This document shows positions 8,333 through 16,194 of a stretch of DNA of 44,271 nucleotides, one piece after another. The stretch spans positions 1 through 44,271 of the forward strand of contig MNVC01000045.1 in the NCBI GenBank assembly GCA_001871435.1, given 5' to 3'. The position numbers were made by a program, and so were the translations under genes. The first letter of the stretch is position 1. Every line of letters begins with the position of its first letter. Below the pieces are notes generated by a model. That model searched no databases, was not told the origin of the DNA, and saw nothing but the letters and a program-made list of their open reading frames with translations. Origin of the DNA: Candidatus Magasanikbacteria bacterium CG1_02_32_51 (lineage in GTDB: Bacteria; Patescibacteriota; Patescibacteriia; Magasanikbacterales; UBA922).

Positions 8333-9556
8333 ATGAACCTATACGAATTTGAAGGTCGAGAATTACTCGAGAAACATGGTATTATAATTCCCGTAGGAGA
8401 AGTCGTCAGACGTGGTGATAATATTGCTGATGCTTATAGAAAATTAGGACTTGAAGAGGTTGTAGTGAAAGCACAAGTTTTGTCTGGTAAGCGTGGTAAA
8501 AATAATGGAATTAAATTTTGTAAAAATATTGAAGAAGTAAAAAAAGCAGTAAAAGAAATTTTTGAGATGTCTATTCGTGGACAATATGTTGCTTCTATAC
8601 TTATAACAGAAAAAATAAATATTGCATCAGAAAATTATTTGTCTATTACTTATGATACTAATCGCAAACAACCAGTTCTAATTTTTAGTGAAGATGGTGG
8701 AGTGGATATTGAAGATGTGGTAGAAGATAAAATTGTAAAAATACTTTTAGATATTAGAAAAAATAAATTACCAGAAAATATTTCTTTACCACAAGATATT
8801 TTGGTTGTTGCCGAAAATCTTTGGCAATGTTTTTTGGCAGAAGACACACGTCTGGTGGAAATAAATCCTTTGGTAAAAACTACGGATGGTAAAATCATAG
8901 CGCTTGATGCCAAGATTGCTCTTGATGATGATGCCTTCTATCGTCATTGTATTGAGGCTCAAGATCGGGCTAAAGAAAAAGGCTTAGATTCTGAGACAAT
9001 CACTGATTGGGCAAAATTTGAAACACGTACTATGCTTGGTCGCCCAGCAACAGAGCGTGAAATTGCTGTGCAAGAAATAGACAAAGGAGAAAAATATTAT
9101 CAAGGTACGGCTGGTAAGTACATTGAATTAGATGGGGATATTGCTTTGATTTTAAATGGTGGTGGTGCTAGTATTGCTAATATGGATGCGCTTATTAAAG
9201 TTGGTTTGAAACCAGCCAACTATACAGAATATTCTGGTAATCCTCCACGTGAAAAAGTCTATGCACTGGCCAAAATTGTTTTGTCTAAATCAGGAATAAA
9301 AGGTCTATGGATGTGCGGAGTTGTGGCTAATTTTACCAATGTAGAGGAAACCTTCAAGGGTATTGTGGATGCCTTAGATAAAATCAAACCTGCCTTTCCA
9401 ATAGTCGTGCGTCGGGCTGGACCTCATGACAAAGAAGGAATGAAATTGTTGGCAGATTGTGCTAAAAGAAATAATTTGAATATAAAAATATTTGGGAAAG
9501 AAATAAGTATGAGTGAGACTGCTCAGGTTTTGGCTGATTTAATAAATAAAAATTGA
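8333..9556 (+). CDS. ATP-grasp acyl-CoA synthetase, ATP-citrate lyase beta-like / citryl-CoA synthetase large subunit
   Basis: SucC-like fold with EINPLV; C-terminus NYTEYSGNPP, VVANFTNVEETFKGI, VVRRAGPHDKEGMKLL, IKIFGKEISMSETAQVL resembles ACLY/AclB more than SucC. Confidence 0.75.
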   Translation: MNLYEFEGRELLEKHGIIIPVGEVVRRGDNIADAYRKLGLEEVVVKAQVLSGKRGKNNGIKFCKNIEEVKKAVKEIFEMSIRGQYVASILITEKINIASENYLSITYDTNRKQPVLIFSEDGGVDIEDVVEDKIVKILLDIRKNKLPENISLPQDILVVAENLWQCFLAEDTRLVEINPLVKTTDGKIIALDAKIALDDDAFYRHCIEAQDRAKEKGLDSETITDWAKFETRTMLGRPATEREIAVQEIDKGEKYYQGTAGKYIELDGDIALILNGGGASIANMDALIKVGLKPANYTEYSGNPPREKVYALAKIVLSKSGIKGLWMCGVVANFTNVEETFKGIVDALDKIKPAFPIVVRRAGPHDKEGMKLLADCAKRNNLNIKIFGKEISMSETAQVLADLINKN

Positions 9557-13967: not shown

Positions 13968-14711
13968 TTAGTTTGCTACCGCGTAGCTGATATTGTTTAA
14001 TTCAATAATGCTATTTAATCTATTTTCAAGTTGAAGTAAAGTTTTTTCTAACCATTCTTGACCAAAGTTTTCTTTATGCCACAAATAAACTTCTGTATCA
14101 CAAAGCCAATTAATAAAATTTTTGATAGTTTCTTCAATATATACTCTAGCTTCTATAGTTTTCATTTCCAAAATTTTGGTATGGAGACTAAACCAAATTA
14201 AAGTGCGAAATTTTCTTAAATTATTTTTGGATAATTTTGCAAGATGACCAGCTTCATAAAAACGTTGGATATTCAAAACATCCATCATATCAGCATCCTT
14301 TAGAAGGTTTAATACTAGTCTGGTTCTTTGACTAGCAAAAATTTTGGTCATGAATTTGCCTGTAACCATGCCACTACACATAAGTATAACAAATGCTCTG
14401 ATTGCTACACTATTTAACACACGATAACGAATAGCATAAAATAATAAAGCAAAAGCAGAAAGGTTGTCATCAAAAAGTGCCATCCAAATCATGGAAGGTT
14501 TGTTGGATAAGGCACGACTAGCATCATGCCACCAAGCAGCAAGCTCTAGAGAGTCTCTTTCTTTTTGAGAAAGTTTGATATTTTGTGAAATTTTTTTGGT
14601 ATTTTCAACTACTCTTTCTACATGGCGTAAATCATGAAGAGGATCAAAAGAATGACTCATTTGTTTTTGAGCTTCCTCTTTAAGTTTTTTGATACTTTTT
14701 GTAAAAGACAT
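13968..14711 (-). CDS. HD-domain phosphohydrolase-like protein
   Basis: HSFDPLHDLRHVERVVENTKK...LAAWWHDASR HD motif. Confidence 0.8.
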   Translation of the reverse strand: MSFTKSIKKLKEEAQKQMSHSFDPLHDLRHVERVVENTKKISQNIKLSQKERDSLELAAWWHDASRALSNKPSMIWMALFDDNLSAFALLFYAIRYRVLNSVAIRAFVILMCSGMVTGKFMTKIFASQRTRLVLNLLKDADMMDVLNIQRFYEAGHLAKLSKNNLRKFRTLIWFSLHTKILEMKTIEARVYIEETIKNFINWLCDTEVYLWHKENFGQEWLEKTLLQLENRLNSIIELNNISYAVAN

Positions 14712-14760: not shown

Positions 14761-14873
14761 GTAGGCCAGTCCCGATTGAATCGGGAGACCCCAACGTTAT
14801 ACCCCGCCCTTCGCGAAAGGCGGGGCTAACCTCAGCCAGAGGCTAATCAGCCTCTGGCTGAAACTGAGCTACT
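14761..14873 (-). pseudogene. Degenerate tRNA-Ile copy 1 carrying substituted/inserted hairpins
   Basis: Keeps gtaggccag, gaccccaacgttata and actgagctac of the tRNA at 14905-14978, with TCCCGATTGAATCGGGA, CCCCGCCCTTCGCGAAAGGCGGGG and TCAGCCAGAGGCTAATCAGCCTCTGGCTGA in place of or inside arms. Confidence 0.75.
14785..14873. repeat. 89-bp perfect direct repeat, copy 1 (partner 15006-15094)
   Basis: gagaccccaacgttataccccgcccttcgcgaaaggcggggctaacctcagccagaggctaatcagcctctggctgaaactgagctact in both, offset 221. Confidence 0.9.
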
Positions 14874-14904
14874 TTATTAAGTTTTATTTTGTTTTTTACT
14901 TTTG

Positions 14905-14978
14905 TAGGCCAGGATGGACTTGAACCATCGACCCCAACGTTATAAGCGTTGTGCTCTAACCAACTGAGCTACTGGCCC
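14905..14978 (-). tRNA. tRNA-Ile (UAU anticodon, reads AUA); CCA not encoded
   Basis: GGGCCAGTAGCTCAGTTGGTTAGAGCACAACGCTTATAACGTTGGGGTCGATGGTTCAAGTCCATCCTGGCCTA; D, anticodon and T stems fully paired; loop CTTATAA; A73. Confidence 0.93.
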
Positions 14979-14998
14979 TCTTGTATTTTTTATTTTGA

Positions 14999-15098
14999 AA
15001 CCATCGAGACCCCAACGTTATACCCCGCCCTTCGCGAAAGGCGGGGCTAACCTCAGCCAGAGGCTAATCAGCCTCTGGCTGAAACTGAGCTACTGGCC
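14999..15098 (-). pseudogene. Degenerate tRNA-Ile copy 2 carrying the same two hairpins, 3' half truncated
   Basis: Keeps ggccagtagctcag and the accatcga...gaccccaacgttata parts of the tRNA. Confidence 0.75.
15006..15094. repeat. 89-bp perfect direct repeat, copy 2
   Basis: Identical to 14785-14873. Confidence 0.9.
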
Positions 15099-15125
15099 TT
15101 CTTTTATTAATTTTGAGTTTTTTTC

Positions 15126-15151
15126 GCCCAAGGCGGACCCGCCTTGGGCGG
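15126..15151. repeat. GC-rich palindrome, CCGCCCAAGGCGGA-like family
   Basis: cgcccaaggcggacccgccttgggcg. Confidence 0.75.
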
Positions 15152-15219: not shown

Positions 15220-16194
15220 ATGAAAAATACTAAAAATAGACAAATTTTCCCAGTTCCAGAAGATAAACGTGCTGAGCGTTTAGATGTTTTTTTGGCTGAA
15301 CAGACAGCTATAAGTCGTTCACAAATTCAGAAGATGATTATCTTAGGACAAGTGACTATTGATGGTAGAACTCCAAAAAAAGCTGGAGAAAGGCTTACCT
15401 CAGTCAAAAATGTTGAAGTAATAGATTTGTCAGAAAAATCACAATCTAGTAAAAAAACAAATAAAAAATTACCCAAACTAGAAATATTAGGAGAAACCAA
15501 AGATTATATTGTGGTCAACAAACCAGCTGGAATTCTTGTTCATCCAACTCAAGCAGGTGAAACAAATACTCTTAGTAATATTTTGGTTGATAAATATCCA
15601 GAAATAAAAAAAATAGGGGATAACGAAGTACGACCAGGTATTGTTCATCGTTTGGATAAAGATGCTTCTGGAGTGTTGATTGTGGCTCGTAATCAAAAAA
15701 GTTTTTCTAGTTTAAAAAGACAGTTTCAAGAAAGACAAATAGATAAAGTATATAGTGTTTTGGTTTATGGAGAATTTAACAAAGATTATAACACTATAGA
15801 TTTTGAAATTGACCGAGGTGATGATGGTCGGATGGTATCTAGACCAAAAATAGACAAAATGAAATTAAGAAATATTACCAAAATTCAAGATGGTAAAGAA
15901 GCTTTGACTGAATATTGGGTAGAAAAAAAATACAAAAGATTTACTTTACTAAAGGTTAAAATACATACTGGTAGAACACATCAAATTAGAGTTCATATGT
16001 TTGCCATTGGTCATCCTGTTGTAGGAGATAGACTTTATATCAACAAAAAACTTATCAAAAAAAGTGATCAAGAATTGAATAGATTATTTTTGCATGCTAA
16101 ACATCTTGAATTTACAGATTTGCAAGGTAAGCGTGTTAGTTTTGACAAAAATATTCCAGTTGAATTGAAAAATTATTTAAAAAATTTAGTTTAA
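15220..16194 (+). CDS. RluD-family pseudouridine synthase with S4 domain
   Basis: S4 (RLDVFLAEQTAISRSQIQKMI), VVNKPAGILVHP, GIVHRLDKDASGVLIVA, GRTHQIRVH. The track start 14995 runs through pseudo-tRNA DNA; true start is 15211 or 15220. Confidence 0.9.
   Translation: MKNTKNRQIFPVPEDKRAERLDVFLAEQTAISRSQIQKMIILGQVTIDGRTPKKAGERLTSVKNVEVIDLSEKSQSSKKTNKKLPKLEILGETKDYIVVNKPAGILVHPTQAGETNTLSNILVDKYPEIKKIGDNEVRPGIVHRLDKDASGVLIVARNQKSFSSLKRQFQERQIDKVYSVLVYGEFNKDYNTIDFEIDRGDDGRMVSRPKIDKMKLRNITKIQDGKEALTEYWVEKKYKRFTLLKVKIHTGRTHQIRVHMFAIGHPVVGDRLYINKKLIKKSDQELNRLFLHAKHLEFTDLQGKRVSFDKNIPVELKNYLKNLV

Follow-up and report, generated by a model that had tools for sequence, protein, structure and literature searches.

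A tRNA-Ile locus of a Candidatus Magasanikbacteria genome, probably the relic of a tRNA-inserted GIY-YIG homing element, with hairpin-interrupted tRNA copies

The DNA analyzed is a stretch of 44,271 nucleotides (the window) from Candidatus Magasanikbacteria bacterium CG1_02_32_51, whose genome, an 837-kb draft in 48 contigs, is called G000 below. Its size, its gene content, and a palindrome in common with named CPR genomes point to a member of the CPR. An intact tRNA-Ile gene in the window is flanked by two degenerate copies that contain palindromes. The features of the locus are as follows.

13968-14711, minus strand: flanking conserved ORF of 247 aa without a Pfam match, used as an orthology marker
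14761-14873, minus strand: degenerate tRNA-Ile copy 1, on the 3' side of the intact tRNA-Ile
14770-14786, minus strand: 17-nt palindrome TCCCGATTCAATCGGGA in place of the 17-nt T arm of copy 1
14802-14825, minus strand: 24-nt palindrome in place of AGCACAACGCT in copy 1
14832-14861, minus strand: 30-nt double palindrome TCAGCC-AGA-GGCTGA-TTAGCC-TCT-GGCTGA in the D-loop of copy 1, a clean insertion at 17^18
14904-14978, minus strand: intact tRNA-Ile, anticodon TAT (ARAGORN and Rfam RF00005, 72.4 bits)
about 14995-15098, minus strand: degenerate tRNA-Ile copy 2, on the 5' side of the intact tRNA-Ile, ending in the T arm
15023-15046, minus strand: 24-nt palindrome at the anticodon-stem site of copy 2
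15053-15082, minus strand: 30-nt double palindrome in the D-loop of copy 2
15125-15150, no strand: additional (fourth) GC palindrome upstream of copy 2
15220-16194, plus strand: flanking S4/RNA pseudouridylate synthase gene, used as an orthology marker

On the minus strand, copy 1 consists of AGTAGCTCAGTT, the 30-nt hairpin, GGTTAG, the 24-nt hairpin, TATAACGTTGGGGTC, the 17-nt hairpin, and CTGGCCTAC. Both copies have the 30-nt double palindrome in the D-loop and the 24-nt palindrome between GGTTAG and TATAACG; the replacement of the T arm by TCCCGATTCAATCGGGA is an extra feature of the downstream copy 1. The tRNA finders accepted neither copy. Both copies match tRNA-Ile(TAT) itself, which excludes an origin from other tRNAs. 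In the assembled metagenome sequence, positions 14785 to 14873 are repeated exactly at 15006 to 15094, an 89-bp repeat that includes two of the hairpins. A preliminary description of the window had reported two degenerate copies with three palindromes in copy 1, which proved exact to the base, and both the exchange of the 17-nt T arm for a 17-nt hairpin and the 89 bp common to the copies, two hairpins included, were confirmed. It had also described a swap at the 5' side of the anticodon stem with a tRNA arm as the target. There is indeed a replacement at this site, but AGCACAACGCT runs from the 3' strand of the D stem into the anticodon stem and is therefore not a tRNA arm; it forms the small inverted repeat AGC-ACAAC-GCT. 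When the 44-kb window was scanned for GC-rich palindromes of at least 15 nt, 6 of the 14 lay inside 380 bp at the tRNA-Ile locus, so this clustering is not due to chance.

The region was found in four genomes of the same genus, and the tRNA-Ile locus was readable in three of them (G001, G002, and G004). All three have degenerate copies, in arrays that are similar to that of the window and not identical to it. A GIY-YIG ORF lies directly after the intact tRNA-Ile(TAT) in G001 and G002. It is absent from this locus in G000 and G004, and no GIY-YIG ORF was found on the window contig. The orthologous tRNA-Ile(TAT) loci thus differ in the presence of the ORF, as is looked for in a homing element. 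The junction GGTTAG^TATAACG holds TCCCGACAAAGTCGGGA or CCCCGCCCTTCGCGAAGGGCGGGG in G001, TCCCGATAACATCGGGA in G002 and G004, and CCCCGCCTTTCGCGAAGGGCGGGG in G000. The copy downstream of the ORF in G002 has the T-arm palindrome TCCCGATTCAATCGGGA, as does copy 1 of the window. Because the ORF is present in G001 and G002 and degenerate copies occur throughout, the window locus is best read as a relic that lost its nuclease gene, loss of the ORF in G000 and G004 seeming more likely to us than two gains. A search of viral contigs found no relative of the ORF at tRNA-Ile.

Palindromes in G000 were surveyed in the stretches around tRNA genes, each tRNA being compared with its surroundings. Nine tRNA genes are adjoined by partial, palindrome-bearing copies: Ile-TAT, Ile-GAT, Val-GAC, Pro-TGG, Phe-GAA, Thr-TGT, Asp-GTC, Cys-GCA, and His-GTG. 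A GIY-YIG ORF is present at five of these nine versus none of the 23 others (p 6e-4). It lies between the degenerate and intact copies at Pro, Thr, and Asp, after the tRNA at Phe, and before it at Cys. The palindrome-bearing loci that have no ORF today are Ile-TAT, Ile-GAT, Val, and His; an element at these four would have to be postulated, and relatives argue for one at Ile-TAT only. Of the non-UvrC GIY-YIG ORFs, 5 of 7 in G000 (p 2e-6) and 12 of 29 in 12 relatives (p 6e-10) lay no more than 500 bp from a tRNA, a zone that makes up about 4% of the genome. In a class-wide sample, the best match was near a tRNA in 24 of 30 genomes, a count that is biased upward because the profile was made from tRNA-linked ORFs.

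All of the tRNA-linked ORFs examined (47/47) are on the strand of the tRNA, and many overlap it by a few bases or start 1 to 4 nt past its end. PF01541, the GIY-YIG catalytic domain, was matched by all 14 tRNA-linked ORFs scanned, and TIGR01453 (group I intron endonuclease) was matched by 8 of them. Residues Y5, Y16, G18, R26, H30, and E62 are invariant in the 14 ORFs; from what is known of the GIY-YIG family, we take Y5, Y16, R26, H30, and E62 to be putative catalytic residues. Several of the ORFs in G000 are broken (contigs C43, C32, and C3; L078, L083, and L082), with an in-frame TGA at Thr, truncation by the next tRNA at Phe, and a missing 5' end at Cys.

Complete loci have an ORF of about 85 aa between the degenerate copy and the intact tRNA, and the units take two forms. 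Form A consists of a 5' part of the tRNA, a palindrome, 6 to 25 nt more of the tRNA, the ORF, and the intact tRNA. Form B is its mirror: the intact tRNA, the ORF, a short 5' piece, a palindrome, and a 3' part. The interruption site in complete units is often in the anticodon or D loop. Glu occurs in both forms, with a common palindrome site (TTTT^CATCC) in G014, G003, and G093, and related Glu ORFs flank tRNA-Glu on opposite sides in G003 versus G014. The order is copy-ORF-intact-copy at Cys in G003 and a tandem copy-ORF-copy-ORF-intact at Gln in G115. When target tRNAs were mapped on a tree of 56 ORFs, 31 label changes were required, compared with a mean of 42 after shuffling, and none of 200 shuffles was as low. 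Most Asp (two families), Ser (three families), and Glu (two genera) ORFs grouped together, and this clustering by target tRNA indicates that target specificity is carried by the nuclease lineage. For Glu, Asp, Ser, Pro, and Cys, the interruption site is fixed per target across genomes, genera, and families, while the sequence of the palindrome varies. A fixed site, ORFs grouped by target, and a changing palindrome are as expected of a homing nuclease with a defined target followed by later hairpin exchange.

The hairpins were found widely in G000 and its relatives, at tRNA copies and elsewhere, and palindrome-bearing tRNA copies range over at least one class. Near-identical versions of the 30-nt double palindrome occur at other tRNA copies and at intergenic sites of G000. 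The pattern TCCCGA-N1..9-TCGGGA has 23 sites in G000, with 0 for the reversed control, and 2 to 22 sites in each of eight relatives, with 0 or 1 for the reversed pattern. The exact 24-mer has three matches in the species collection, all in intergenic DNA of other genomes without a neighboring tRNA. Empty sites could not be recognized for intergenic palindromes, since gene identity to the relatives is about 78% and the DNA between genes has diverged too far. In the Ala-Phe-Pro tRNA cluster, degenerate copies are present in G000 and absent from G001.

The parent tRNA next door is a record of the sequence of each copy before it was changed, and the position of each palindrome could be read against it. 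Clean insertions occurred in the D-loop (17^18), the anticodon loop (34^35), and the T-loop (54^55); 14 of 15 fell within loops whose closing stem had 4 or more pairs, where 6.1 were expected. Replaced segments were usually inverted repeats themselves. Thus, the Asp anticodon arm CTGCCCTGTCACGGCAG was exchanged for TCCCGACTCAGTCGGGA, Phe CAGTGGACTG was exchanged for TCCCGCAGACGGGA, and AGCTCAGCT was exchanged for TCCCGACTCAGTCGGGA in the Thr copy of G004. Some of the replaced inverted repeats are tRNA arms. Others are chance repeats outside tRNA arms, such as AGC-ACAAC-GCT in Ile, which points to hairpins at the DNA level. In 16 distinct replacements, the terminal complementary pairs of the removed segments summed to 43, whereas length-matched random segments from the same tRNAs gave a mean of 6.6 (0 of 20,000 as high); the replacement and insertion events were curated by hand, with boundaries set by sequence match alone. 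Five of the 16 had no terminal pairing as delimited, among them the Asp copy of G069, an exact 17-for-17-nt arm exchange whose boundary was set too wide. In many tRNA copies, and in many genera, hairpins have taken the place of whole arms, and the size of these micro-hairpins is 14 to 36 nt.

Similar hairpins occupy stem-loops of the RNase P RNA, at positions that differ between species. TCCCGACTTGTCGGGA lies in the internal RNase P RNA hairpin in G001 and in the 3' hairpin in G004, with an unrelated hairpin at the reciprocal site. G029 has CCCCGATGTACATCGGGG in its RNase P RNA and TCCCGATGTACATCGGGA in its tRNA-Ala copy, and G020 has TCCCGATGACCATCGGGA in its RNase P RNA and CCCCGATGACCATCGGGG in its tRNA-Ala copies. 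A variant common to the RNase P RNA and the tRNA copies of one genome argues for spread within the genome. Ordinary compensatory evolution could account for some of the stem changes in RNase P RNA, and one hairpin with the loop AGTAAT kept and the stem altered was left out of the exchange count because a plain compensatory change was possible there. The idea of the preliminary description that palindromes replace existing stem-loops is supported, as a pattern, by the orthologous tRNA-Ile junctions, the arm exchanges, the terminal complementarity, and the RNase P RNA.

Scars of tyrosine integrases were rejected as a source of the fragments. Integrase sites typically leave tRNA 3' ends, and most of the fragments are 5' or internal parts of tRNAs. 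A RAYT/Y1 transposase, also raised in the preliminary description, is not supported as the agent: PF01797 has two full-length matches in G000 and no match in G014, G029, G035, and G041, which are 97 to 100% complete and all carry hairpins. By inspection, there was no GTAG/CGTC tag at the hairpin base, and the 5' flanks vary (AGTT, TTAG, GGTC, TTTT, GCAA, CATA, and others). The small dispersed repeats (SDRs) of cyanobacteria, said to have been described by Elhai and colleagues in 2008, are reportedly hairpin-forming mobile repeats of 21 to 27 nt with nested insertions, and that description reportedly does not include the replacement of whole stem-loops. The hairpins found here are likewise small and nested, and they would differ from the SDRs in sequence. 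REP/REPIN palindromes, which are mobilized by RAYT Y1 transposases (PMC3116915, PMC3733652), are also short and dispersed and also form double hairpins; in contrast, the hairpins here lack the shared GTAG/CGTC tag, have several carriers without Y1, and are exchanged for stem-loops besides being inserted. Short hairpin-forming repeats have spread in the intergenic DNA and rRNA of sponge mitochondria, similarly with conserved stems and tandem double hairpins (PMC2800124). However, those are organelle genomes, and the accessible part of that paper describes neither a nuclease element nor interrupted tRNA copies.

On the nuclease side, the mORF gene hybrids of fungal mitochondria (atp6 in Allomyces macrogynus; atp6, atp9, cox2, and nad3 in Glomus sp.) offer a close parallel, in which an endonuclease ORF in an essential gene replaces the part it displaces and leaves the native fragment behind; the endonuclease of the Glomus atp9 mORF is of the GIY-YIG type (PMC3630166). 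The hybrids target protein genes in fungal mitochondria, and their mobility is biochemically supported (PMC3630166), whereas the elements here target bacterial tRNA genes, have hairpins at the interrupted site, and are putatively mobile. SegB of T-even phages, a GIY-YIG homing endonuclease of the tRNA region, makes its cuts within tRNA genes, and it causes the tRNA-segB segment to be amplified in tandem (PMC13096335). As a free-standing GIY-YIG enzyme adjoining tRNA genes, it is, by description, the nearest tRNA-linked homing enzyme of this type; unlike the elements here, it is phage borne, and interrupted palindrome-bearing tRNA copies do not appear in the accessible part of its description. 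Insertions in CPR rRNA genes lie mostly at the top or base of stem-loops, and some encode GIY-YIG proteins; that survey covers rRNA only, without mention of tRNA, and judges the GIY-YIG insertions to be outside homing spread (PMC11270868). A literature search, with most subscription journals outside its reach, turned up no account of GIY-YIG elements linked to tRNA genes, or of exchanged stem-loops, in these bacteria. It returned no paper that joined GIY-YIG, tRNA genes, and Patescibacteria, and gave analogues only. The tRNA-linked GIY-YIG element is widespread and apparently undescribed.

From these sequence comparisons, the locus is probably what remains of a GIY-YIG homing element inserted in a tRNA gene, and its interrupted copies were probably colonized by micro-hairpins that exchange stem-loop for stem-loop. 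The nuclease would cut uninvaded alleles of its tRNA at the interruption region. Recombination would then bring in the element and, along with it, the tRNA portion that is missing, which would always leave one functional gene, and the displaced half would stay at the locus. Repeated cutting and unequal recombination may give rise to tandem copies, as demonstrated in phages for SegB (PMC13096335). In G000, the ORF at tRNA-Ile would have been lost, with the two interrupted copies left. Mobile micro-hairpins of 14 to 36 nt would populate such copies by entering loops or replacing whole stem-loops, possibly on single-stranded DNA or nascent strands, where a hairpin from another site would be copied instead of the resident. 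With a hairpin at its target site, the copy would in addition be protected against recutting. No cause was found for the protection of the intact tRNA beside the ORF against recutting, and the model must explain why it is spared.

The same data bear on other readings. Ordinary tandem tRNA duplicates may have decayed, with REP-like palindromes scattered in unselected DNA and the GIY-YIG genes unrelated; palindromes in intergenic DNA and the Arg-GCG and Gln fragments, which have neither palindrome nor ORF, would fit this. We consider it unlikely, since the ORF association, strand bias, and target-specific clustering are strong, the palindromes are concentrated at tRNA copies, and an interruption site fixed per target across genera and families is not what unbiased decay would leave. 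The preliminary description favored palindrome spread alone, by template switching or a structure-specific transposase, in which tRNA copies would be hit passively, without any involvement of a nuclease. Its hairpin exchange largely holds, given the exact exchanges in tRNA copies and RNase P RNA and the nested palindromes in the tRNA-Met copy of G035, but it overlooked the nuclease element whose ORF is present in G001 and G002. As a full account it is quite improbable, because it leaves the extra tRNA copies, the flanking GIY-YIG ORFs, and the fixed site per target unexplained, and Y1 is absent from four hairpin-bearing genomes.

The interrupted copies might instead be functional RNAs, for instance decoys for tRNA-cleaving toxins or leaders with hairpins that control translation of the downstream nuclease ORF. 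Their sequences are close to the parent tRNA, and the end of the 5' copy is often just ahead of the ORF start codon; however, the copies are unconstrained in length, in hairpins, and in the side of the ORF on which they lie, and they persist after its loss, so we give this reading little credence. There is next to no chance that the locus is an assembly artefact of a metagenome bin. A 48-contig draft and an exact 89-bp repeat would invite that suspicion, but the three same-genus genomes have similar, nonidentical arrays at the orthologous locus, and comparable arrays occur in genera of other families. The relic of a homing element is thus preferred.

If this reading is true, the elements would be a bacterial equivalent of the fungal mitochondrial gene-hybrid homing elements, directed at tRNA genes, and would suggest why GIY-YIG ORFs and broken tRNA copies adjoin the tRNA genes of small bacteria in this group. 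The broader proposition stands at about even chances: a class of mobile DNA of 14 to 36 bp that exchanges stem-loops in dispensable tRNA copies and functional RNAs, together with a tRNA-parasitic GIY-YIG family that carries the spare tRNA part by which the host is kept alive. Few records of how very small palindromes move are as clean as the interrupted tRNA copies. Because the parent tRNA preserves the sequence before the exchange, the old question of how REP-like palindromes spread without a transposase of their own becomes testable. For annotation, ORFs adjacent to tRNA genes and fragments of tRNAs may, in these genomes, be debris of mobile elements.

Several other arrangements were seen near tRNA genes. 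After tRNA-Arg-GCG in G000 (L064; C5, about 8640-8860), there are two 99-bp tandem repeats without GC palindromes, each terminating in the last 17 nt of that tRNA. The spacers of the Ala-Phe-Pro cluster in G001 (L160; C52) and G009 (L122; C82) have longer imperfect repeats of the type CTTCGCTACGC..., and another repeat family seems to reside between tRNA genes. A call of tRNA-Cys(ACA) adjoins tRNA-Thr-CGT in G001 (L158; C51:9540-11655), where G000 has tRNA-Gly-CCC; its anticodon arm is the long AT-rich hairpin TTGTTTACATAAGTATTATTTTGTAAACAA, and it may be a hairpin-swapped tRNA-Gly. By tRNA-Met in G035 (L131; C3), the nested palindromes TCCCGATG[TCAGCCTTGGGGCTGA]ATCGGGA and then TCCCGAGCTCGCCTCGGGA were found, one palindrome lying in the loop of another. 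In G001 (L155; C30:39098-40998), a degenerate tRNA-Asn copy is interrupted by a TCCCGAT...ATCGGGA palindrome whose loop contains an intact tRNA-Asn, an arrangement of a tRNA gene within a tRNA gene; the right-hand junction is identical at L180 in G004.
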